Part shown: positions 2,570-32,628 of the stretch, one piece after another
Position numbering within the stretch: the first letter of the stretch is position 1
Layout: each line of letters begins with the position of its first letter
DNA from: a virus
Direction: 5' to 3' (one strand)
DNA: 35,531 nucleotides
IMG/VR virus record: IMGVR_UViG_3300042541_001268
Span: 1 to 35,531 of that record
Program-made: the position numbers and the translations under genes
The notes under the pieces: model-generated
What the model saw: only the letters and a program-made list of their open reading frames with translations
Told to the model about the DNA's origin: nothing
The model's database searches: none

Positions 2570-3142
2570 ATGATACCTTTTAATTTAAATAATTTAACTC
2601 AAATTGGTGAAGACATATATGTATGTAAAAATTTTTTATCTAATAAAGATTTGTTAATCATAAATGATGAAATTAATTTAAAGAAAGAATTCTTGTTGGA
2701 TACTAAAAATACTAGTAAAGAAATTAAAAGTCTTACCATTATATATAATAAAATCAAACAAATAGTAAAAGATCCATATAATATTACAAATTCTAGCACC
2801 ATGAATATATTAAGTGTAGGAGATACCTGGGGTCTACATGCGGACAATGGTGCCTTTTTAGATATAAGAAAGCAAAGTTTGCTTTTAAAAGAAGGGGAAG
2901 AGTTTATATTAAAAAATAATAACATTTTTGGTACTGTTGCCTATATAAACGATTTTGGTGGTGGAGAACTTAGATACCCAAACCAGTCAATTACTTATAA
3001 ACCAGAGCCAGGTGATTTAGTTATTCATAGCGCAGAAGATCATTGCACTCACGAAGTCCTTAAAGTTACATCGGGAGTTCGATATTCTTATTCAAATGGA
3101 ATATATGAAAAAATAAAGGTTCCAAAGAATTTAGTTATTTAA
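2570..3142 (+). CDS. 2OG-Fe(II) oxygenase, prolyl-hydroxylase-like
   Basis: A 190-residue paralogue of 318-1034. Iron ligands H90-A-D92 and H161 and the 2OG arginine R171 (GVRYSYSNG) are all present, as is the GGGELRYPNQ..PEPGDLVIHS block (130-153). It is shorter than its paralogue, lacking the C-terminal extension of about 50 residues. Leaderless: TATAAT (2558-2563) ends six bases before the ATG. The 3' end overlaps the minus-strand frame at 3131-3295 by 12 bases. Substrate unknown. Confidence 0.85.
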   Translation: MIPFNLNNLTQIGEDIYVCKNFLSNKDLLIINDEINLKKEFLLDTKNTSKEIKSLTIIYNKIKQIVKDPYNITNSSTMNILSVGDTWGLHADNGAFLDIRKQSLLLKEGEEFILKNNNIFGTVAYINDFGGGELRYPNQSITYKPEPGDLVIHSAEDHCTHEVLKVTSGVRYSYSNGIYEKIKVPKNLVI

Positions 3143-7133: not shown

Positions 7134-7733
7134 CTAGTAAGTATTCCCTATAGCGTCAGAATCTGGAAAATATTGAAATACTAAAGATGCTCTAGGTTTG
7201 TTATTAATAACCTGATGTACCACCCCAGCAGGCACATATACCACATCTCCTGGTTCAAGGACTACGGAGTCATACTCGGCACCTTCAATGCTTATTTTCT
7301 CCATATCCTCTTCTTTAACATTTTTATAGAATCTCCACTCAATGGTACCAACACAGTGCCAGGAGATAACAGCGTGGTCATCACTATGGATCCAGTATTC
7401 CTGCTCATTGCCTAGGAAGTTAATAATACTTTTAATTGAACTGATTTTATTTTTTGTCAAACCTTTTATAAGGCTTTGTGCCTCTAATGACTTATCAAAT
7501 AGTCTAGTGGTTTTGTCTTCTATAGCATTAAAGATGATGGGGTCAAACTTATTATAAACCATAATGTGGTCTGTAAGGTATCTACGGTCTGGATTATTTT
7601 TATTTTTGTCTTTGTCTCTATTGTAGTTATAATCAAAGTTTTCTATGAAATCTGACCAGTTAGGCACATCTTTGCATAGCCCCCTAAATAGGGCATATGT
7701 CTTGTTGTTGGAGGCTTCTATAATTTTATCCAT
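7134..7733 (-). CDS. Cupin/JmjC-like protein
   Basis: A 199-residue protein with a cupin barrel: WIHSDDHAVISWH (115-126) supplies H116/D118 or H126, and EPGDVVYVPAGVVHQV (160-175) gives the second motif with H173; R181 follows in the strand. This matches cupin_4/JmjC-like Fe(II) enzymes. Its N-terminus resembles the CDGSH protein at the window start. Leaderless: TGGTATGAT ends six bases before the ATG. Whether it is a hydroxylase or a non-catalytic cupin is unknown. Confidence 0.7.
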   Translation of the reverse strand: MDKIIEASNNKTYALFRGLCKDVPNWSDFIENFDYNYNRDKDKNKNNPDRRYLTDHIMVYNKFDPIIFNAIEDKTTRLFDKSLEAQSLIKGLTKNKISSIKSIINFLGNEQEYWIHSDDHAVISWHCVGTIEWRFYKNVKEEDMEKISIEGAEYDSVVLEPGDVVYVPAGVVHQVINNKPRASLVFQYFPDSDAIGNTY

Positions 7734-8205: not shown

Positions 8206-8754
8206 ATGTCAATAACAAGAATAAATAACATTTTTTCAAAAAAAGAAATAGATCATATAAAGAAAATAATATCAGAAAGCCCAACAATTATTGATAATGA
8301 GTTAGGCAGGATTCAGGTTCGTGATTTAGAAAGCCTACTACTCCCAGAGACTATTGAGAAACTAAAGGAGATTGGCAAACCTTTAGAGATGGGCTCTGCC
8401 ATGTCTGTAGAGTATAGCCTTTTATATGGAAACCCTGAACTAAATCCTCATTTTGATGGAGACACTAATGACCTGATTGTTAGTATACAGTTAGAGTCTA
8501 ATACCGTTTGGGATATAGGGTTAAACCTAGAAACTTATAAGTTAGAGGATAACTGTGCCTTAATCTTTAATGCAAATAAAGAAATTCATTGGAGGGTTTT
8601 GAAGCATTTTAAAGAAGGAGAGTATATTAGGATGATGTTTGTAAGGTTTTTAAATCCAGAGAATTTGTCAGATTACTCTCACCTTTCAGTCCCAAATAAT
8701 CCAATGCTTGATGAGGCATATAGGTTTAGAGATAGCCTAGGCTTTATTTCATAA
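8206..8754 (+). CDS. 2OG-Fe(II) oxygenase-like protein
   Basis: A 182-residue protein with H82-F-D84, distal H128 and R142 (EYIRMMFVRF) in jelly-roll order, i.e. the 2OG oxygenase ligand set. It differs in sequence from the P4H-like proteins nearby. Leaderless: TACAAT (8194-8199) ends six bases before the ATG. Two tandem DnaA-box sequences begin three bases after its stop. Substrate unknown. Confidence 0.75.
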   Translation: MSITRINNIFSKKEIDHIKKIISESPTIIDNELGRIQVRDLESLLLPETIEKLKEIGKPLEMGSAMSVEYSLLYGNPELNPHFDGDTNDLIVSIQLESNTVWDIGLNLETYKLEDNCALIFNANKEIHWRVLKHFKEGEYIRMMFVRFLNPENLSDYSHLSVPNNPMLDEAYRFRDSLGFIS

Positions 8755-24659: not shown

Positions 24660-25484
24660 ATGGCACGTTTTACTACAACAGGTGGTAGCGGAGACGGGAC
24701 TCCAGGAGCACCTGGTACACCAGGAGAAGATGGGGCAGATGCTATTTGGAATTACACTGGAGAATACAGTGGTGGCGCAGCATATGCTGTTGGAGATTTA
24801 GCAACATACGATGGACAACTTTGGTACCGTGCTAATGCAAATGGTGGAAACGTTGGAGACACACCTGCACAAGGATTTATCTGGAACTTGCTTGCAGCAA
24901 AAGGTGCAGATGGAACAAATGGTTCTAGCGGACTTGTATACTTAGGAAACTATATTTCAGGTAATGGATACATTACAGATCTTGCAGTTGTAAGAGGAAG
25001 CGATAACAATCTATACATTGCAAAAGCAAATGGTGGTTTAGCAGATCCAGTTGGTAACACTGCCGAGTGGGACATTTTCTCTAAAAACAGCACTTTTGTT
25101 ATTGGTGGAGAAAGAAATAAAGTTCTTGTTTCTGATGAAGAAAGATTAGTATTGGTAAGCACAAGACCGCCTGGAGAAGAAGTATCTGAAAACCAATGGG
25201 TATTTGGATCTGATGGATTATTAACTGGCCCAGCACCAGACAGTTTAATAAAAGTTAATGGACTTTATGGTAAAGATGCAGATCCTTTATTTTTACTTGC
25301 TCCTGACACTGTTGTTATATCTGGAGATGGTGGAGAATTCTTAGATGATCCAACTGTTGCTGATAATCAAATTGCAACTATTGGTGATTTACCAACGGGA
25401 GCAACAGGAACATTCCAAACCTCAGATAGCAAGATGGTTACAGTTACCAACGGAATCATTACATCTATAGAGTCACTGACTTAA
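24660..25484 (+). CDS. Tail protein with collagen-like and carbohydrate-binding-like modules
   Basis: A 274-residue protein. Residues 11-24 (GDGTPGAPGTPGED) are Gly-X-Y triplets with Pro in the Y position, the usual site of collagen prolyl hydroxylation. Two modules follow: YSGGAAYAVGDLATYDGQLW (about 37-56) with W..LLAAKG, and SGLVYLGNYISGNGYITDLA (about 97-116) with WDIFSK, both like CBM5/12-type or related tail modules. The end (TGTFQTSDSKMVTVTNGIIT) looks like a fibre tip. Possible receptor binding; possible hydroxylation substrate (inference). Confidence 0.7.
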   Translation: MARFTTTGGSGDGTPGAPGTPGEDGADAIWNYTGEYSGGAAYAVGDLATYDGQLWYRANANGGNVGDTPAQGFIWNLLAAKGADGTNGSSGLVYLGNYISGNGYITDLAVVRGSDNNLYIAKANGGLADPVGNTAEWDIFSKNSTFVIGGERNKVLVSDEERLVLVSTRPPGEEVSENQWVFGSDGLLTGPAPDSLIKVNGLYGKDADPLFLLAPDTVVISGDGGEFLDDPTVADNQIATIGDLPTGATGTFQTSDSKMVTVTNGIITSIESLT

Positions 25485-25504: not shown

Positions 25505-26236
25505 ATGGCTGTTTCTAAATCTATGGATTTCCCAGGTGCAAAAAAATCTTCTTATGCTGCACAAGTAGAACAAAGTCAAACATATCCTACTGTAGATAAT
25601 GCTATTTCATTTCTTCCAGTCCCTGGCCCAGTCGGACCACAAGGACCTGCAGGTAGAGATGGCAGAAATGGCGAACAAGGATTGCAAGGAGCACAGGGAA
25701 ATCCTGGCCCTAAAGGAGATCGTGGTCCAGCAGGAGTCAATGGCCAAAGTTCATTGTCATCATCTGGACAACAAGCAGGTTGGGCCTCATATACAAACAC
25801 TATTGAAAAACCAATCAAACTTGGTATCTCTCAAGGAGACGATGGTTGGGTAACTCTTTTATTAGACACAAAAGATAAGAGTCAAAATGAAAAATACCTT
25901 CCAGCAGGCTGTACCAGTCTTTGGAATAGCCACCAGAGAGCCTTAAACTTTCACGGTATAAAAGAAGGCTCCCAAGTATCCGTAACATATAACTTTGAAC
26001 TAACCACATATACCTCAAATACAGAGGTTTGGCTAAGAACCTATTTTGCAAGCAATGATCAGGTGTTTGTACAATTAGTAGGATCATTTAAATATCAGAA
26101 TACTTATAATCTTTCAGTCACTCAACAAATATTTATTGAAAACCAAGCAATGTGGGGCAATGGCGCTGTTCCACAAATTAGAACAGACTTTGATTCATCT
26201 GTAATATTCAATTCTGTCTACGTCAGCGTGGTATAA
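25505..26236 (+). CDS. Collagen-like tail fibre protein
   Basis: A 243-residue protein. Residues about 40-80 are a run of roughly 13 Gly-X-Y triplets (starting GPVGPQGPAGRDGRNGEQ), a collagen-like shaft likely to trimerise. The C-terminal 160 residues are beta-rich (TLLLDTKDKSQNEKYLPAG, VSVTYNFELTTYTSNTEVWL) and would form the head. Leaderless: GATAAT (25493-25498) ends six bases before the ATG. Probably a receptor-binding fibre. Confidence 0.75.
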   Translation: MAVSKSMDFPGAKKSSYAAQVEQSQTYPTVDNAISFLPVPGPVGPQGPAGRDGRNGEQGLQGAQGNPGPKGDRGPAGVNGQSSLSSSGQQAGWASYTNTIEKPIKLGISQGDDGWVTLLLDTKDKSQNEKYLPAGCTSLWNSHQRALNFHGIKEGSQVSVTYNFELTTYTSNTEVWLRTYFASNDQVFVQLVGSFKYQNTYNLSVTQQIFIENQAMWGNGAVPQIRTDFDSSVIFNSVYVSVV

Positions 26237-26701: not shown

Positions 26702-27298
26702 ATGGCAGATATATTAGTATCAAATGACGATTTAACAGTTTTTGGTGGTCCAGTAGAAATAAGTCTTGACCTAGACATAGGGCCACAGGGTGATCGTGGA
26801 AGTATTATTGTGGGATCAAACGGAAATCCACAAGATGCAAATGTTCATGCAGATATCCTTAACCTTCCAACAGGAATTGAAGCGCTAGATATTGCAATTG
26901 ACTATAATCCATACTCAGATACATATAAAACAGTATTTCAAAGAATAGCGACAACAACTGGAACACAGTGGACTGAAATGCTTAGTTTAAAAACAAATTT
27001 TTATTCTGCTGTAAAAGATGTAACTGCTGCAAATGGAAAACTAACTATTCCACCAATTAACGTAACAGAAATTGCAAGCGACGTAAACCTTACATCTGCA
27101 AGTTTTAGTATTCAGTATTCTATTTCATCTCCAGATACTGCTGGACCATTAGCAACAAATCTTGTAGTAAAAGATGTAGTAGATAGCGGAAGCATTAGAG
27201 CACTACCACTTGAAATAGAGGGTGTAGAATATGATGGAACAACTTGGGGACCGATAACTGGTACTAAGCGTGTCCACCTATTTATTACGGTGGTATAA
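26702..27298 (+). CDS. Putative tail protein, 198 aa
   Basis: N-terminal strands (VEISLDLDIGPQGDRGS, about 18-34) with a short G-x-y-like stretch, then a beta-rich domain. GGAGATT seven bases before the ATG. Tail role inferred from position. Confidence 0.6.
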   Translation: MADILVSNDDLTVFGGPVEISLDLDIGPQGDRGSIIVGSNGNPQDANVHADILNLPTGIEALDIAIDYNPYSDTYKTVFQRIATTTGTQWTEMLSLKTNFYSAVKDVTAANGKLTIPPINVTEIASDVNLTSASFSIQYSISSPDTAGPLATNLVVKDVVDSGSIRALPLEIEGVEYDGTTWGPITGTKRVHLFITVV

Positions 27299-27317: not shown

Positions 27318-28076
27318 GTGGCAGCAGAGAATATTGACAATACCGTTGGTGGTACTGGGCTATTCAATGCCAAAATACCTGGACTTTCAGATGCAGCCGA
27401 TATTCAAGCAGCGCTAAGACTTTACCACTATGGATCTTATGCCTATGACGGTTCAAATACAAATACCGCAAACCTTTTAACCCCATCTATTGCAAAACAT
27501 TTACAGAATCTTGTAGATGCAGATGCTCTTGAAGTAGTAAATAGAACTGCAGCAGATGCAGCAGAAGTATTAGCCAGAAATGCTGCAATTACAACACATA
27601 ATTCATCTACAACAAATGTCCATGGCATAGCAGATACTTCTCTTTTAGCAACAAAGTCTTATGTAGACGGAGTTGATAAATCTTCACTTGTATCACCAAA
27701 AGAATTAACAACTATTTCTGCAACAGCAGCAACTGGAGCAATTGATATTGATGTTGCTACTTCTTCTATTGATATTCGTACTTCCAATGCCGTCGCAAAT
27801 TGGACAATAAATATTCGTGGCAATGCAACAACTACTCTTAATTCATTAATGGCAACAGGTCAGCAAATCTCTGTTGTATTTGAATCTCCTCAAAGTGGAA
27901 CTGCATATTACCCAACAGCACTTACTGTTGATGGTGCATCAGTAACTCCTAAATGGTTAGGTGGAATAGCCCCTTCTTCAGGAAACATTAACTCAACAGA
28001 TGTTTATGTTTATACAATTAGGAAAACAGGTGCAGAAACATTTACTGCTCTTGCATCACAGAACAAGTTTGCTTAG
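27318..28076 (+). CDS. Tail fibre-like protein, 252 aa (GTG start)
   Basis: Ala-rich helical part (RTAADAAEVLARNAAITTHN) leads into SLLATKSYVDGVDK, a phage tail-fibre hinge motif like that in 34372-35531, then a beta-rich end. Starts at GTG 27318 with AAGGGTGA upstream; a TATAAT promoter lies 18 bases before, so it has a leader. Confidence 0.65.
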   Translation: MAAENIDNTVGGTGLFNAKIPGLSDAADIQAALRLYHYGSYAYDGSNTNTANLLTPSIAKHLQNLVDADALEVVNRTAADAAEVLARNAAITTHNSSTTNVHGIADTSLLATKSYVDGVDKSSLVSPKELTTISATAATGAIDIDVATSSIDIRTSNAVANWTINIRGNATTTLNSLMATGQQISVVFESPQSGTAYYPTALTVDGASVTPKWLGGIAPSSGNINSTDVYVYTIRKTGAETFTALASQNKFA

Positions 28077-28094: not shown

Positions 28095-29807
28095 ATGAGT
28101 CCATTATTTCGTGGCCCAAGTGGTATAGGAATATTTTTAGCAGCAACTCCTACTCCTGTAGCACCTACTCCTGTAGCACCTACTCCTGTAGAACCTACTC
28201 CTGTAGCACCTACTCCTGTAGCACCTACTCCTGTAGCACCTACTCCTGTAGCACCTACTCCTGTAGCACCTACTCCTGTAGAACCTACTCCTGTAGCACC
28301 TACTCCTGTAACACCAACACCAGAGGTTACAATTTATGATATTTATGTAACATGTAACGGATCAACGACTGCTTATTCAGGCGCTTATGGAACACCTCCT
28401 ACAGGATCAGGAATTACAAACATTACAGGAACAACTACAATATCAAACTTGTCAAGTGCTGAAATTGTTACTTTATTGGGAATTCCTGCAGCATGTGTAC
28501 CAACACCAACACCAACACCTGTTACTTGGTACATCTCTGGTTGCGTTAATGGAAGTCCTGTTTATGGAGAAGGTCCAACATCAGGAAGAGCCCTTGATAA
28601 TCTTCTAGAAGTTCACCCAACTGCAACCAATATTACTGCAGCAAGTTCTTCAGGATATCCATCAGTAACTTGTACAACACCTACTCCAACACCTGTTGCA
28701 ACAACTTGGTATATCTCTGGTTGTGTTGGTGGAACTACGGTTACTGACACAGGAGCAACATCAGGACAGGCATTAGATAATTTATTAGCAACATATCCAA
28801 CTGCAACCAATATTACTGCAGCAAGTTCTTCAGGATATCCATCAGTAACTTGTACAACACCTACTCCAACTGCACCAGTTGCACCAGTTGCACCAGTTGC
28901 ACCAACATGTGTACCAACCTGGACAACAACAACAACTTACGGTGAGTGGGGTCCTTGGGGTGCTTGTGTAAGAGTTGGTGGCCCAGATGAATATGCACAA
29001 ACAAGAACTAGATCGTATACTATAACAGAAACTGCAAGTGGATGTTCTCCAAACCCAGCCCCAATTGTTACAACAGGAACAGATTCGGACACACAAGACT
29101 GTACGCCTCCAGCAACAGGACCATTCTTCCCACCGTTCTTCCCACCGTTCTTCCCACCGTTCTTCCCACCATCATTCTGTCCGTTCTTCCCACCAGTATT
29201 CTGTCCATTCTTCCCACCAGTATTCTGTCCATTCTTCCCACCAGTATTTACCCCAACTCCAACTGAACCAACACCAGTTGCACCAATTGATGGATGTGTA
29301 CAGGGTGATGTTCTTGTAAGAACAACTAGTGGATATGTTAAAGCAAGAGATTTGTTTATAGGACAAAGTCTAGTATCCTACAGTTTCAATGAATTACCAG
29401 ATAACTCATCTGTTGATTTTGCTGAGACATGGGTATCTGATACTCTAACTGGATCATCAGTTGTTGAAACAACTATTAGTGCAATTAAGGCAAGAGATGT
29501 TGCAACTACTGTAATGTTTAATGGTAGTAAGCAAAGAAGATTCTCTCTAGAGCACTTAATGCTAGTTAAGAGAGATGGAGTATACGCATTTATTCAGGCT
29601 GGTGTAATTAAACTTGGCGACTATTTAGTTTATGACATAAATAATCAAGCAACAGATGTACTTGTTGAAGTATTGGGTTATGTTGATGAAACAACAGATG
29701 TTTATGACATCACTGTAAATCCTTATTCACTCTTTATTGCAGGAGATCTAATCTCTCATAATAAGAAGGGTGTCTTCCAAGGCCTAACACAAAGAGATTC
29801 AGAATAA
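28095..29807 (+). CDS. Pro/Thr-rich fibre protein with TSR-like and Hint (intein-like) domains
   Basis: A 570-residue protein. Residues 19-76 are eleven PTPV[AET] repeats; two 60-residue modules (W145, W205) are separated by TPTPTPV linkers; PVAPVAPVAP follows at 261-270; a thrombospondin type-1-like region has W285-x2-W288-x2-C291 and TRTRSYT; 344-385 is FFPP/CPFFPPVF repeats. Residues 401-556 are a Hint domain: C401 (CVQGDVLVRT), block B H in RFSLEHLML, and C-terminal LISH555-N556. The next residue is Lys557, not Cys/Ser/Thr, so full splicing is unlikely; cleavage or transfer is more likely. The run of modification genes starts directly after it. Probably a secreted or virion-surface fibre. 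Confidence 0.8.
   Translation: MSPLFRGPSGIGIFLAATPTPVAPTPVAPTPVEPTPVAPTPVAPTPVAPTPVAPTPVAPTPVEPTPVAPTPVTPTPEVTIYDIYVTCNGSTTAYSGAYGTPPTGSGITNITGTTTISNLSSAEIVTLLGIPAACVPTPTPTPVTWYISGCVNGSPVYGEGPTSGRALDNLLEVHPTATNITAASSSGYPSVTCTTPTPTPVATTWYISGCVGGTTVTDTGATSGQALDNLLATYPTATNITAASSSGYPSVTCTTPTPTAPVAPVAPVAPTCVPTWTTTTTYGEWGPWGACVRVGGPDEYAQTRTRSYTITETASGCSPNPAPIVTTGTDSDTQDCTPPATGPFFPPFFPPFFPPFFPPSFCPFFPPVFCPFFPPVFCPFFPPVFTPTPTEPTPVAPIDGCVQGDVLVRTTSGYVKARDLFIGQSLVSYSFNELPDNSSVDFAETWVSDTLTGSSVVETTISAIKARDVATTVMFNGSKQRRFSLEHLMLVKRDGVYAFIQAGVIKLGDYLVYDINNQATDVLVEVLGYVDETTDVYDITVNPYSLFIAGDLISHNKKGVFQGLTQRDSE
28147..28320 (+). repeat. 15-base tandem repeat encoding PTPVA
   Basis: About eleven copies of CCTACTCCTGTAGCA with few changes; three copies differ in the Ala/Glu/Thr position. 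Confidence 0.85.
28617..28870 (+). repeat. 180-base direct duplication within the fibre gene
   Basis: 74 identical bases (28617-28690 and 28797-28870) at exactly 180-base spacing inside two homologous 60-residue modules; the upstream parts of the modules have diverged, suggesting gene conversion. Confidence 0.85.
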
Positions 29808-29808
29808 A

Positions 29809-30006
29809 ATGAACGAAGTAAATCCTTTACACATGCTTAATTTAAAAAATTATGTAAAGGAATCAGATCTCTCTAATCAAAGATTTAATATATGCAAACA
29901 ATGTCCAGAACTAATAAAATTAACAAAACAATGTAAAAAATGTGGATGTTTTATGAAAGCAAAAGTAATGTTAGAAGCAGCATCGTGTCCGTTAGGAAAA
30001 TGGTAA
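29809..30006 (+). CDS. Zinc-ribbon protein, 65 aa
   Basis: CKQCPELIKLTKQCKKCGCF supplies two C-x2-C pairs, with CPLGKW at the end, a pattern common in phage zinc-ribbon families. TAATG overlap with the hydroxylase at 30006; starts one base after the fibre stop. Role in the cassette unknown. Confidence 0.7.
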   Translation: MNEVNPLHMLNLKNYVKESDLSNQRFNICKQCPELIKLTKQCKKCGCFMKAKVMLEAASCPLGKW

Positions 30007-30521
30007 TGATAAAAGAAGAAATTGCTCCAGGAATTGTTGTATATGATAATGTAATTCCAGATAATGTTTTTTTATATAAAGAAATTCAAAAATTGATGAT
30101 GGATTCTAAATGGATTACACCTAAATGGTCTTATGCAGAAGTTGAAGATTTAGAAAAAATAACTTCTTTAAAATTAAACAGGTTGTTCTTTGATCATTTT
30201 GATCCAATAGAGAAAGACTATAAAGAGTATTATAAGATATTTCCTGAATGGCATGACGTATACGGAATAATGAAATATAGTCCAGGACAAGGTTTTATTA
30301 ATCATGTAGATGACGGAACCGAATATCATAGAAGAGTTTCAGTTGTATATTATTTAAATGATGATTATATTGGTGGAGAAATAAACTTTCCAAGATTTAA
30401 TATTAAACTTAAACCAAAAACTAATCAAATAATTATATTTCCATCTATATATGTTTATAATCACTCAGTATCCCCAATTATTGAAGGCGATAAATATGCA
30501 GTAGTTAGTTTTCTACGATGA
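30006..30521 (+). CDS. Prolyl-4-hydroxylase-like 2OG oxygenase
   Basis: A 171-residue protein with H100-x-D102, distal H153 and Lys163 (GDKYAVVSF); Lys at the 2OG-binding position is typical of collagen and viral prolyl-4-hydroxylases, while the homologues at 318, 1043 and 2570 have Arg. The strand VVYYLNDDYIGGEINFPRF (113-131) is the usual P4H core. Start set by the TAATG overlap at 30006. It lies between a Pro-rich fibre gene and a GT60-like transferase, so I infer that it hydroxylates prolines of a tail protein. Not proven. Confidence 0.85.
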   Translation: MIKEEIAPGIVVYDNVIPDNVFLYKEIQKLMMDSKWITPKWSYAEVEDLEKITSLKLNRLFFDHFDPIEKDYKEYYKIFPEWHDVYGIMKYSPGQGFINHVDDGTEYHRRVSVVYYLNDDYIGGEINFPRFNIKLKPKTNQIIIFPSIYVYNHSVSPIIEGDKYAVVSFLR

Positions 30522-31078
30522 AAGCGCCATATTTATTAAAAACCGTTCTTCCAGAAAAAGAACATAAGGAATTACAAGATCTAGCAATGCATCTTTGGTC
30601 AACAGATAAAAGTACATTTGACGAAGGTTTTGGTAGACATCAATGGGCAATTTGGGACGGAACACATAGAGAAAATATAATACCACTTAGAAAATTTCAT
30701 CAGATGCTTCTACCACTGGCAAAAGAAGAATTTGAATCAGAAACATTACTTCCTTCCTGGTGTTTATTAAGTATCTATGAAGGAGAAAAGGCTAGACTTT
30801 GGAAACATGTTGATGATAATGCTTGTACATACCATATGAATTATACAATTTTTCATAAAACACCTTGGGATTTTTATGTTGAAGGAATAAAGTTTCAACC
30901 AGAAGAAAATGATATGGTTATTTCATACGGGAATGATCAACAACACTGGAGAGAGGAATTCCCTGACCCAAAGAATAACCTAGTTGCAAATGCTTTTTTC
31001 TTTTATGTAGAGCCAGATCATTGGTTTTTTACAAAAGGCCCACAACATTTATATACTGGAATAAGAAATAAGGGATGA
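30518..31078 (+). CDS. Second 2OG-Fe(II) oxygenase of the fibre cassette
   Basis: A 186-residue protein with H97-x-D99 (WKHVDDNACTYHMNYTIF) and distal H143 (DQQHWREEFPD); the 2OG-anchoring residue is less obvious (R145 or K152). Sequence is unlike its neighbour, so it may hydroxylate another residue or help the first enzyme. ATGA overlaps at both ends show strict coupling to 30006 and 31075. Confidence 0.7.
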   Translation: MKAPYLLKTVLPEKEHKELQDLAMHLWSTDKSTFDEGFGRHQWAIWDGTHRENIIPLRKFHQMLLPLAKEEFESETLLPSWCLLSIYEGEKARLWKHVDDNACTYHMNYTIFHKTPWDFYVEGIKFQPEENDMVISYGNDQQHWREEFPDPKNNLVANAFFFYVEPDHWFFTKGPQHLYTGIRNKG

Positions 31079-32028
31079 AAAAAATATTAGTTAGTGTTGT
31101 CAATTATTGTGACCCAGAGTTTTATTCTACAATGTTTTCTTTGTGGCATCAGGCAAAAAATAAAGAGGATCTGTATTTTTCTATAGTTTCAGAAGATAAT
31201 ACTAAATATGATTTATCTTTTATACCAAAAGAACAGTTATTATATAGGCACTTTGATCTTTCAGAGTATAGGGGTGGTGTCTGTTGGGCTAGAAACTTGG
31301 CAACTCAAGTTAATGTAGATTATAACTATTTTATACAGTTTGATTCACACACCTATGCAGCACCAGAATGGGATAGGTTTGCTGTTGAAAGATATGAAAA
31401 ATTAAATATTAATAATGAAAAATTTATTATTGCATATGCCCCAGCAGAGTATAAAATAATGTCAGACGGGTCAATTAATTTTGTTACAGACTGTAAAGTA
31501 TCACTGTATGGATTTTTATTTAATAATTTAGTTCCAGGATTTCAGTTTCCAGGATACAGGGTTTTAGAAATAGAGGAAATAGTTCGTTCGTATTGGGCTA
31601 CATGTTGTTACCTTTTTGCACCCAAGCAATGGATTGATGAAGTTGGTATTAGCGGTAAAGAATCATTCAATACTGAAGAGTTTGCTTTATCTTTAAGAAC
31701 TTATGCAAAAGATTGGAAAATTTACTCTATTGGCACAAGGGATGTTTTTCACAATCAGTCGCATGGACAGGCAAATGGATCTGTAACAAGAGAAACGCTT
31801 AGGCCTTGGGCAGACGGCAGAAAAGAACACTACTGGAGCCATGTTGAAGAATCAACTAATAGACTGTCTATGCTAATGTCTGGTCAATTAGAAATTCCAA
31901 AAGAAAAAGTTTACAATTTTCTTAAAGAGTCTGGTATAGACACAAAATACACAGACTTTATTCCAAACTACAGTTCACATGTTGTAGTTGAGCCTAGGGC
32001 ACTTGGCATGCCACCAAGAAGGAATTAG
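31075..32028 (+). CDS. GT60-like GlcNAc-transferase (PF11397 type)
   Basis: A 317-residue protein with ILVSVVNYCDPEFYSTMFSL (4-23), GGVCWARNLA (67-76), the DxD-like FIQFDSHTYAAPEWD (86-100; D90, H92), SFNTEEFALSLRTYAKDW (197-214) and DVFHNQSHGQ (223-232). These are the blocks of the GlcNAc (PF11397) family, which includes the Skp1 hydroxyproline GlcNAc-transferase of Dictyostelium and Thr-mucin transferases of trypanosomes. No signal or membrane segment, so cytoplasmic. ATGA overlap with the oxygenase. Donor (UDP-GlcNAc) and acceptor (Hyp or Thr of the fibre) are inferred. Confidence 0.8.
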   Translation: MKKILVSVVNYCDPEFYSTMFSLWHQAKNKEDLYFSIVSEDNTKYDLSFIPKEQLLYRHFDLSEYRGGVCWARNLATQVNVDYNYFIQFDSHTYAAPEWDRFAVERYEKLNINNEKFIIAYAPAEYKIMSDGSINFVTDCKVSLYGFLFNNLVPGFQFPGYRVLEIEEIVRSYWATCCYLFAPKQWIDEVGISGKESFNTEEFALSLRTYAKDWKIYSIGTRDVFHNQSHGQANGSVTRETLRPWADGRKEHYWSHVEESTNRLSMLMSGQLEIPKEKVYNFLKESGIDTKYTDFIPNYSSHVVVEPRALGMPPRRN

Positions 32029-32588
32029 CGAGGAAACTTAGCCATCCATTCCTTAGTCTTTGGAGTGATGCCTTTCCAAGAAGACCAGTCGTCCCCACCC
32101 TTTGTCATGTAGTATGCAATTTCAGCATTCTTGACGGGATTAAATAATTCAGCGTTAGAGTCAAGATCAAACTTGTCCCTACGATCAGGACCAAGTGTAT
32201 CAATCATATTAATTTGGAACATACCATAAGACGAATCCCCAGTCTTGTGATTGCCATTAAAGGCCAATGGTCGTCCATTAGATTCTTTCTTTGCTACTGC
32301 CCAAGCCACAACAAGGTCTTTACCCTTGAAGCCAACTAGGGAAAGCAGTTCCTTTAGTTCTAAATCTGTTAGAGAAACCTTATTTTCAAAACTCTCTAAC
32401 TTTTTTGCTTTAGAAACCAAAAAAACCTCTTTCGAGGTGGTTTCCGATGTCTGAGCCTGTTTCAGGCTAAGGTTATTCTTAGTATCAAAATCTGAAATAG
32501 CATTAGCAGAATTAGACATAACTGTTACTAGTGCTACGATACTGAGTGTGCTAATGATCTCTTTGTTTCTTTCGATAAATTTAATCAT
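32025..32588 (-). CDS. Secreted lysozyme / lytic transglycosylase-like endolysin
   Basis: A 187-residue protein. Signal-like N-terminus (IISTLSIVALVTVMSNSANA, 11-30). The lysozyme-fold domain (about 72-187) has catalytic E102 in AWAVAKKESNGRPLAF, then SSYGMFQINM (119-128), the usual SLT/lysozyme pattern. Start at 32588: AAGGAGGAAACT is directly upstream; the longer frame begins inside the leader. Opposite strand to all tail genes around it, with its own promoter and a leader hairpin. Its stop overlaps that of the transferase. Confidence 0.85.
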   Translation of the reverse strand: MIKFIERNKEIISTLSIVALVTVMSNSANAISDFDTKNNLSLKQAQTSETTSKEVFLVSKAKKLESFENKVSLTDLELKELLSLVGFKGKDLVVAWAVAKKESNGRPLAFNGNHKTGDSSYGMFQINMIDTLGPDRRDKFDLDSNAELFNPVKNAEIAYYMTKGGDDWSSWKGITPKTKEWMAKFPR

Positions 32589-32610
32589 AGTTTCCTCCTT
32601 AGAAAACAAC

Positions 32611-32628
32611 AACACCTTGGTAGGTGTT
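32611..32628 (-). promoter_or_regulatory. Hairpin in the lysozyme mRNA leader
   Basis: Perfect 7-bp stem AACACCT-4 nt-AGGTGTT between promoter and Shine-Dalgarno. It does not cover the AAGGAGG. Could stabilise the mRNA or bind a factor. Confidence 0.6.

Follow-up and report, generated by a model that had tools for sequence, protein, structure and literature searches.

What does a phage gain by carrying two oxygenases and a glycosyltransferase directly behind a repeat-rich protein, and does it hydroxylate and glycosylate its own fibre? This question is raised by five open reading frames (ORFs) lying head to tail in a 35,531-nucleotide viral DNA, IMG/VR record IMGVR_UViG_3300042541_001268 (the window). 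They encode a fibre-like protein with simple repeats, a Cys-rich DUF6171 protein, two putative 2-oxoglutarate (2OG) oxygenases termed OXY1 and OXY2, and a GT60-type glycosyltransferase (Table 1). An earlier note on this sequence had proposed self-modification of the fibre, connecting enzymes and substrate by gene order in this one contig. We compared the position occupied by these genes (the slot) among related genomes and found that the enzyme set follows the repeat type; uncultured water phages therefore appear to decorate their own fibres. In a family related to actinobacteriophages, the slot is probably a swappable cassette for fibre decoration; its chemistry is inferred.

A search with the transferase yielded 20 loci. 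Gene order was kept in near relatives, and with it the linkage whose loss the earlier note had named beforehand as a possible refutation; OXY1 was present in some and absent from others. Loci L012 and L014 to L018, whose GT60 is 83 to 85% identical to that of the window, combine OXY2, DUF6171 and GT60 with a protein bearing 16 to 35 P-x-P motifs and have no OXY1, and L019 to L022 (GT60 81 to 83% identical) have an OXY1 that is 49% identical; locus L013 was cut off. The repeats were borne by different protein backbones among relatives, and more distant GT60 genes occurred in mixed contexts, including, in the same slot, TPTP repeats (L065 and L066) and Pro-free Thr repeats of the TI, TN and TD type (L081). 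The sample was therefore anchored on two slot-flanking genes, independently of slot content. The best 80 of 578 and the best 80 of 570 confirmed relatives were taken, and the sample therefore comprises near relatives only. In all, 238 loci, among them phage XacN1 and two stretches of the window, were reduced to 209 with the SLT gene, 152 with a slot of at least 2.5 kb and 87 after near-identical slots were merged; the slot of the window is represented in the counts by the near-identical L023. In 82 of the 87 slots an upstream ORF reached 100 aa and was taken as the called (readable) fibre; the remaining slots are L080, L123, L211, L213 and L230, of which L123 and L213 carry OXY2.

Clustering of the genes in the 87 slots placed a GT60 module in 26 of them. 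The alternatives comprised a nucleotide-sugar epimerase with similarity to GDP-mannose dehydratase (F8, 22 slots), often accompanied by an O-fucosyltransferase-like family (F11, 14 slots), GT61 and/or a JmjC oxygenase, and a sulfotransferase (4 slots). The Pfam names of these families rest on one representative each, and for the single representatives of F11, F16, F17, F19 and F20 that were scanned there was no Pfam match. Searched by member, F11 matched the protein O-fucosyltransferase family PF10250 weakly in 9 of 14 cases (best E value of 1.1e-4), and it also matched POFUT2 weakly among Protein Data Bank (PDB) sequences (E value of 0.015). In L122, L135 and L231 a radical SAM/SPASM gene (F28) lies immediately upstream of GT60.

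Fibres with P-x-P, VTP, poly-Thr or INT repeats had a modifying enzyme in the slot in 60 of 60 cases, compared with 3 of 22 for other fibres; the three were L140, with a truncated fibre, L236, with an oxygenase array, and L175, with F17. Individual associations were tabulated as slots with both enzyme and repeat, enzyme only, repeat only and neither. For OXY2 and P-x-P over the 82 slots these numbers were 29/0/13/40 (p = 2e-12), and over the 67 slots bearing a cassette enzyme they were 29/0/13/25. All 29 of the OXY2 fibres had at least 6 P-x-P motifs and 28 had at least 10, so that the 67-slot table became 28/1/12/26 at the stricter limit of 10; the association persisted at all limits tried, from 3 to 30. 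It also persisted (24/0/11/37, p = 5e-11) in the 72 slots left when 10 that lay outside the slot-independent anchor scans were removed. Other enzymes followed other repeats in the 82 slots: JmjC with VTP gave 12/1/8/61 (p = 2e-8), GT61 with VTP gave 6/0/14/62, and F11 with P-x-P gave 14/0/28/40. GT60 was present with all five poly-Thr fibres. The connection between enzymes and repeat protein thus extends beyond gene order in one contig, and the core idea of the earlier note, a phage modifying its own fibre, was strengthened; the division of labour differs from the one it proposed, and the modules are exchangeable, a feature that it had not noticed.

Shared descent was addressed with trees of genes flanking the slot. 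On the SLT tree, phylogenetically independent pairs for OXY2 and P-x-P were concordant in 12 cases, discordant in none and tied in 9 of 21. Corresponding values were 8, 0 and 2 of 10 for JmjC and VTP, and 5, 0 and 1 of 6 for GT61 and VTP (limit of 25, p = 0.06). The OXY1 tree required 4 changes of repeat class, compared with 11.4 in shuffles (35 slots), and the SLT tree of the same 35 slots required 10 (p = 0.21). The tree of gene D, on the other side of the slot, needed 6 compared with 6.2 (18 slots, p = 0.60), where the OXY1 tree needed 2. The GT60 tree required 2 compared with 5.7 in shuffles (24 slots), and the SLT tree of 24 GT60 slots 6 compared with 5.6 (p = 1.0). The trees of OXY1 and GT60 thus group the slots by repeat type, whereas those of the two flanking genes show no such structure. 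The subclades of OXY1 match repeat class, one of them being found with INT repeats.

Several observations weigh against this reading. Thresholds and repeat classes were chosen after the data had been seen, and the INT class was assigned by eye for L214 and L081. OXY2 was absent from 12 slots whose fibres have at least 10 P-x-P motifs, and L143 has OXY2 together with mainly VTP repeats (6 P-x-P, 90 VTP). OXY1 showed no association with P-x-P over the 67 slots (25/17/17/8, p = 0.6), and its SLT-tree pairs were concordant in 3 cases, discordant in 7 and tied in 10 of 20. Fibres with FTP repeats contain Thr-Pro, yet OXY1, OXY2 and GT60 were absent from all six of their slots. For the GT60 genes of L062 to L064, L069 to L080 and XacN1 (L047), no protein with P-x-P, VTP or poly-Thr repeats was found within 6 kb. 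The N-terminal domain of the fibre was borderline across all 34 E-type fibres (see gene E, Table 1; p = 0.05), and the tree of DUF6171 carried a signal over 48 genes (p = 0.001) that was lost in a subset of 16 slots (p = 0.46). Finally, fold comparison cannot tell prolyl hydroxylases from other 2OG enzymes. The six FTP fibres, with YSFTP-like units, are those of L197, L171, L175, L225, L137 and L204, some of which end in a Hint domain.

Could the covariation arise with enzymes that never touch the fibre? Fibre and cassette might form one recombination block whose enzymes act elsewhere, for example on host cell-envelope glycans in superinfection exclusion. Near-related backbones do differ in fibre repeat and enzymes alike, as a block swap would produce, and the glycosyltransferases of the pelagimyophage host-recognition island were interpreted, in the available part of that report, as modifiers of the host O-chain (PMC7029224). 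Mere linkage, however, would predict that the fibre's own N-terminal domain tracks the repeat at least as well as the enzymes do. In the 19 E-type slots with OXY1, a small set, that domain required 5 changes compared with 5.3 (p = 0.54) and OXY1 required 3 (p = 0.025), so that OXY1 was a better correlate of the repeat than the N-terminal domain encoded in the same gene as the repeat. Several slot-enzyme homologues are, moreover, protein modifiers, and we consider linkage without function improbable. A still less probable account is that the repeats are unmodified spacers prone to slippage. The near-perfect 15-bp DNA repeats of the PTPV array in the window fit such an origin; against it, the TP dipeptides of L066 are written with nine different codon pairs, and enzyme type tracks repeat type. 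Modification of phage DNA, by TET/JBP-like hydroxylation followed by glycosylation, appears the most far-fetched of these proposals. Some phages hypermodify DNA with virus-encoded glycosyltransferases, according to a title cited in PMC12619734, and a window oxygenase outside the slot (1043-1708) has a weak, sub-cut-off match to Tet_JBP, but the slot enzymes belong to other families and covariation with protein repeats would not be predicted. The homologues of the slot enzymes are mostly protein or sugar modifiers (PF11397, PF10250, GT61, JmjC_2, dehydratase and sulfotransferase). Judging from the covariation, the slot enzymes probably act on the repeats of the adjoining fibre.

The identities that the earlier note had assigned to the enzymes were borne out. 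The transferase matched PF11397 with an E value of 2.6e-20 (cut-off of 21 bits), as did 28 of 28 proteins of the GT60 alignment (E value of 0.01 or lower); the earlier note had listed a missing match to this family as a refutation. It contains FDSHT, and DSH is present in 24 of the 28 aligned proteins; we take a DxH metal motif to be typical of this family. OXY1 matched PF13640 with 51.4 bits (cut-off of 27). By pattern, its family has HxD in 62 of 62 members and Lys or Arg ten residues past the distal His in 60 of 62, the His-Asp-His-Lys/Arg set of a prolyl 4-hydroxylase (P4H). A short divergent form of OXY1 occurs in the GT60 slots L170, L231 and L200. The OXY2 protein of the window had no Pfam match of its own, and PF13532 was reached weakly by 7 of 31 members (best E value of 0.0019), all 31 of which have the HxD motif. 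A search of PDB sequences with the OXY2 and GT60 profiles gave no match. An AlphaFold model of OXY2 from the 31-sequence alignment had a mean confidence score (pLDDT) of 94, and its top Foldseek matches were the HIF prolyl hydroxylase PHD2 (E value of 1.1e-7) and AlkB, with a Pseudomonas putida P4H slightly lower. By VIA-align, the best match was a Burkholderia 2OG oxygenase (Z of 17.2, root-mean-square deviation of 2.0 over 162), followed by SnoN (16.9) and, at about 15.8, prolyl hydroxylases alongside amino-acid halogenases. From the model, a 2OG-oxygenase fold for OXY2 is certain enough, more so than its substrate. The PHROG label of ferrochelatase attached to OXY1 and OXY2 matches was rejected in view of this 2OG fold. 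DUF6171 was found in at least 53 of the 87 slots, its counts being lower bounds, as in L023, where the ORF caller replaced the copy by a longer overlapping ORF. In L165 (11362-12561, minus strand) a single protein combines DUF6171 with a GT60 domain, which hints at cooperation between DUF6171 and the transferase.

How would the work be divided among these enzymes? We take the Skp1 and mucin-type polypeptide alpha-N-acetylglucosamine (pp-alpha-GlcNAc) transferases to belong to GT60/PF11397. The accessible text of PMC8724618 describes the Dictyostelium Skp1 transferase, which acts on hydroxyproline, and that organism's mucin-type-initiating enzyme as related pp-alpha-GlcNAc transferases, so that hydroxyproline and Thr are both possible GT60 acceptors. 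A strictly Skp1-like sequence, in which a prolyl hydroxylase of the phage first converts prolines of the repeat and GT60 then glycosylates the resulting hydroxyproline, agrees with the P4H-type residues of OXY1 and with the presence of OXY1 or OXY2 in 20 of the 25 slots that have GT60 and a called fibre. The other 5 hold none of OXY1, OXY2 and JmjC, however, and GT60 also stands beside poly-Thr and TI/TN/TD repeats, which makes such an order unlikely as an obligatory one, although oxygenases encoded outside the slot could stand in for the slot enzymes. The window itself encodes five additional oxygenase-like proteins, at 300-1034, 1043-1708, 2570-3142, 7134-7733 and 8206-8754; 1043-1708 passes PF13640, 7134-7733 passes JmjC_2, 2570-3142 is slightly below the PF13640 cut-off, and 300-1034 and 8206-8754, without a Pfam match at 0.001, are oxygenase-like by eye alone. 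OXY1, to which the earlier note had tied the Pro repeats, is missing from the close relatives that combine P-x-P with GT60; in view also of its lack of association and its mostly discordant or tied pairs, it was rejected as a P-x-P-specific enzyme. OXY1 homologues also accompany INT-type repeats without P-x-P motifs, and since the subclades match repeat class, INT included, the residues targeted by OXY1 may vary, with subfamilies perhaps tuned to different repeats.

Under the decoration reading, the fibre-like protein would display a simple repeat that enzymes encoded downstream modify in the infected cell before assembly. OXY2 is the better candidate for a proline hydroxylase than the P4H-like OXY1, because 28 or 29, depending on the limit, of its 29 fibres carry P-x-P, and it would fairly likely hydroxylate the prolines of these repeats. 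GT60 would with similar likelihood add a sugar, probably N-acetylglucosamine or another N-acetylhexosamine, to the Thr hydroxyls of the repeat, or otherwise to hydroxyproline. Thr is favoured because GT60 accompanies Thr repeats with few or no P-x-P motifs and because slots with GT60 and none of the three oxygenases exist. DUF6171 may, more tentatively, assist the modifying enzymes as an adaptor or helper. Where relatives lack the GT60 module, its place is taken by F11 with the nucleotide-sugar dehydratase, by GT61 and/or the JmjC oxygenase, or by others.

The ORFs of the window lie where the earlier note had placed them, the first two being separated by 1 nt and each later pair overlapping, and the eleven PTPV[AET] units and FFPP arrays it had described were found again by TRF (Table 1). 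It had not described a Hint domain. The Pfam intein model PF14890 matched the repeat protein below the cut-off (E value of 0.0021). A model of the region (pLDDT of 87.9) matched best a bacterial intein-like (BIL) domain, 2lwy, in Foldseek (E value of 6.2e-8), with inteins and Hedgehog matching too; by predicted fold, residues 401 to 556 are a Hint domain. It shares with BIL/Hint domains the predicted fold, a Cys at the N terminus and His-Asn at the C terminus (His555-Asn556), and differs in forming the C terminus of a repeat protein, with Lys557 at the +1 position. A splicing intein has Cys, Ser or Thr there, and we therefore predict cleavage rather than splicing. Whether the domain of the window would cleave itself from the finished fibre, through a thioester at Cys401 and cyclisation of Asn556, is in our view evenly balanced. 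Some relatives have His-Asn at the Hint end and others have altered ends or no Cys (e.g., L065 and L107), and autoprocessing is therefore not universal. In L031 (9119-12409, IMGVR_UViG_3300034093_001036) another FFPP protein carries a Hint domain (86%); it is followed, as far as 19014, by genes for a sulfotransferase (PF03567) and for an Asp/Asn hydroxylase (PF05118), by a methyltransferase-like gene and by an oxygenase-like run. This region is possibly a second decoration cassette.

Table 1. Features of the decoration slot and its borders in the window
Feature	Coordinates	Strand	Evidence
Repeat-bearing fibre-like protein, 570 aa; PTPV[AET] array, TPTP linkers, PVAPVAP, FFPP array, C-terminal Hint	28095..29807	+	ORF, tandem repeats, homologues in relatives
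PTPV[AET] array, 15-bp unit x 11.1	28149..28315	+	TRF, 96% match; near-perfect DNA copies
FFPP arrays, periods of 12, 24 and 48 bp	29120..29248	+	TRF
Predicted Hint/bacterial intein-like domain, residues 401 (Cys) to 556 (Asn) of the repeat protein	29295..29762	+	AlphaFold, Foldseek
DUF6171 Cys-rich protein, 65 aa	29809..30006	+	PF19668, 5.4e-8
OXY1, P4H-like 2OG-Fe(II) oxygenase, 171 aa	30006..30521	+	PF13640, 2.3e-13
OXY2, second 2OG oxygenase, 186 aa	30518..31078	+	Predicted structure, Foldseek, VIA
GT60-type glycosyltransferase, 317 aa, DSH motif at residues 90-92	31075..32028	+	PF11397, 73.6 bits
SLT/lysozyme-like gene; right-hand slot boundary and anchor, outside the cassette	32025..32615	-	PF18896, 1.7e-15
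Gene D, conserved, upstream of the slot; left-hand control tree, outside the cassette	26702..27298	+	Family F2 in 48 slots
Gene E; its N-terminal domain opens the called fibre in 36/82 slots	27318..28076	+	Comparison across slots

The 570-aa repeat protein had no PHROG match at an E value of 0.1, and we infer that it is a fibre; its neighbours at 24660-25484 and 25505-26236 match tail-fibre PHROGs. Both neighbours had been read in the earlier note as collagen-like further targets. This description held for 25505-26236 (PF01391, 4e-7) and was rejected for 24660-25484, which had no Pfam collagen match. As a matched substrate, 25505-26236 was rejected as well, being present with every repeat class and not tracked by the enzymes. 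Elsewhere, a sister genome (L035, 2691-4112, minus strand) encodes a carbamoyltransferase (PF02543/PF16861), perhaps sugar-modifying, and in the Xanthomonas phage XacN1 a carbamoyl transferase is annotated beside a GT60-like gene.

No near match to positions 1-25000 of the window was found among phage records, and the D and M proteins had no match there at an E value of 0.001; hence no cultured phage with the slot was found. The terminase of a sister contig (G001) is 54 to 55% identical to those of Streptomyces phages of about 128 to 134 kb among the best 15 of 354 matching records, one of which, Wofford, belongs to the Stanwilliamsviridae. On these sequence comparisons, the host is likely to be an actinobacterium.

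A literature search by titles and abstract openings returned no description of a phage fibre that is hydroxylated and glycosylated. Mycobacteriophage virions carry glycans on the C termini of capsid and tail-tube subunits (PMC12619734, citing Freeman et al. 2023) and are thus alike in having sugars on phage structural proteins; the passages available from that source mention neither a hydroxylase nor swappable, repeat-matched enzymes, whereas the target presumed in our case is a fibre with repeats. The pelagimyophage cluster is likewise a variable fibre island with glycosyltransferases, but repeat-enzyme covariation as seen here is not reported in the excerpt of PMC7029224. The Dictyostelium Skp1 pathway, the glycosyltransferases of which are given as soluble and cytosolic in the extract of PMC8724618, shares a PF11397 transferase with a P4H-like oxygenase nearby; here, the oxygenase is optional, the acceptor repeats also include Thr-only ones and the module is interchangeable with O-fucosyltransferase-like and GT61 genes. 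Mucin-type pp-alpha-GlcNAc transferases, such as the Trypanosoma cruzi enzyme of a title cited in PMC8724618, share the transferase family, with Thr/Pro-rich acceptor candidates here. Compared with mucin-type Thr O-glycosylation, the enzyme here is phage encoded and presumably cytoplasmic, and its acceptor is putative.

The phage would likely benefit from a coat of sugars, which would make the fibre stiffer, shield it or alter receptor binding. A wider proposal, for and against which we see about equal weight, is a modular repeat code in which P-x-P, VTP, poly-Thr and INT each go with hydroxylase and glycosyltransferase alleles of their own, repeat and enzymes being exchanged together. The fibre would thereby become a glycoprotein, mucin-like or rich in hydroxyproline, and its decoration could be changed wholesale, with Hint maturation in some. 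An acceptor repeat and modifying enzymes that change together would constitute a natural library of enzyme-substrate pairs, and the small enzymes and simple repeat peptides would be suited to direct testing in Escherichia coli. The finding would also suggest a function for some phage 2OG oxygenases now classed as auxiliary metabolic genes, and the decorated fibre would be a prokaryotic-virus counterpart of mucins or of plant hydroxyproline glycoproteins.

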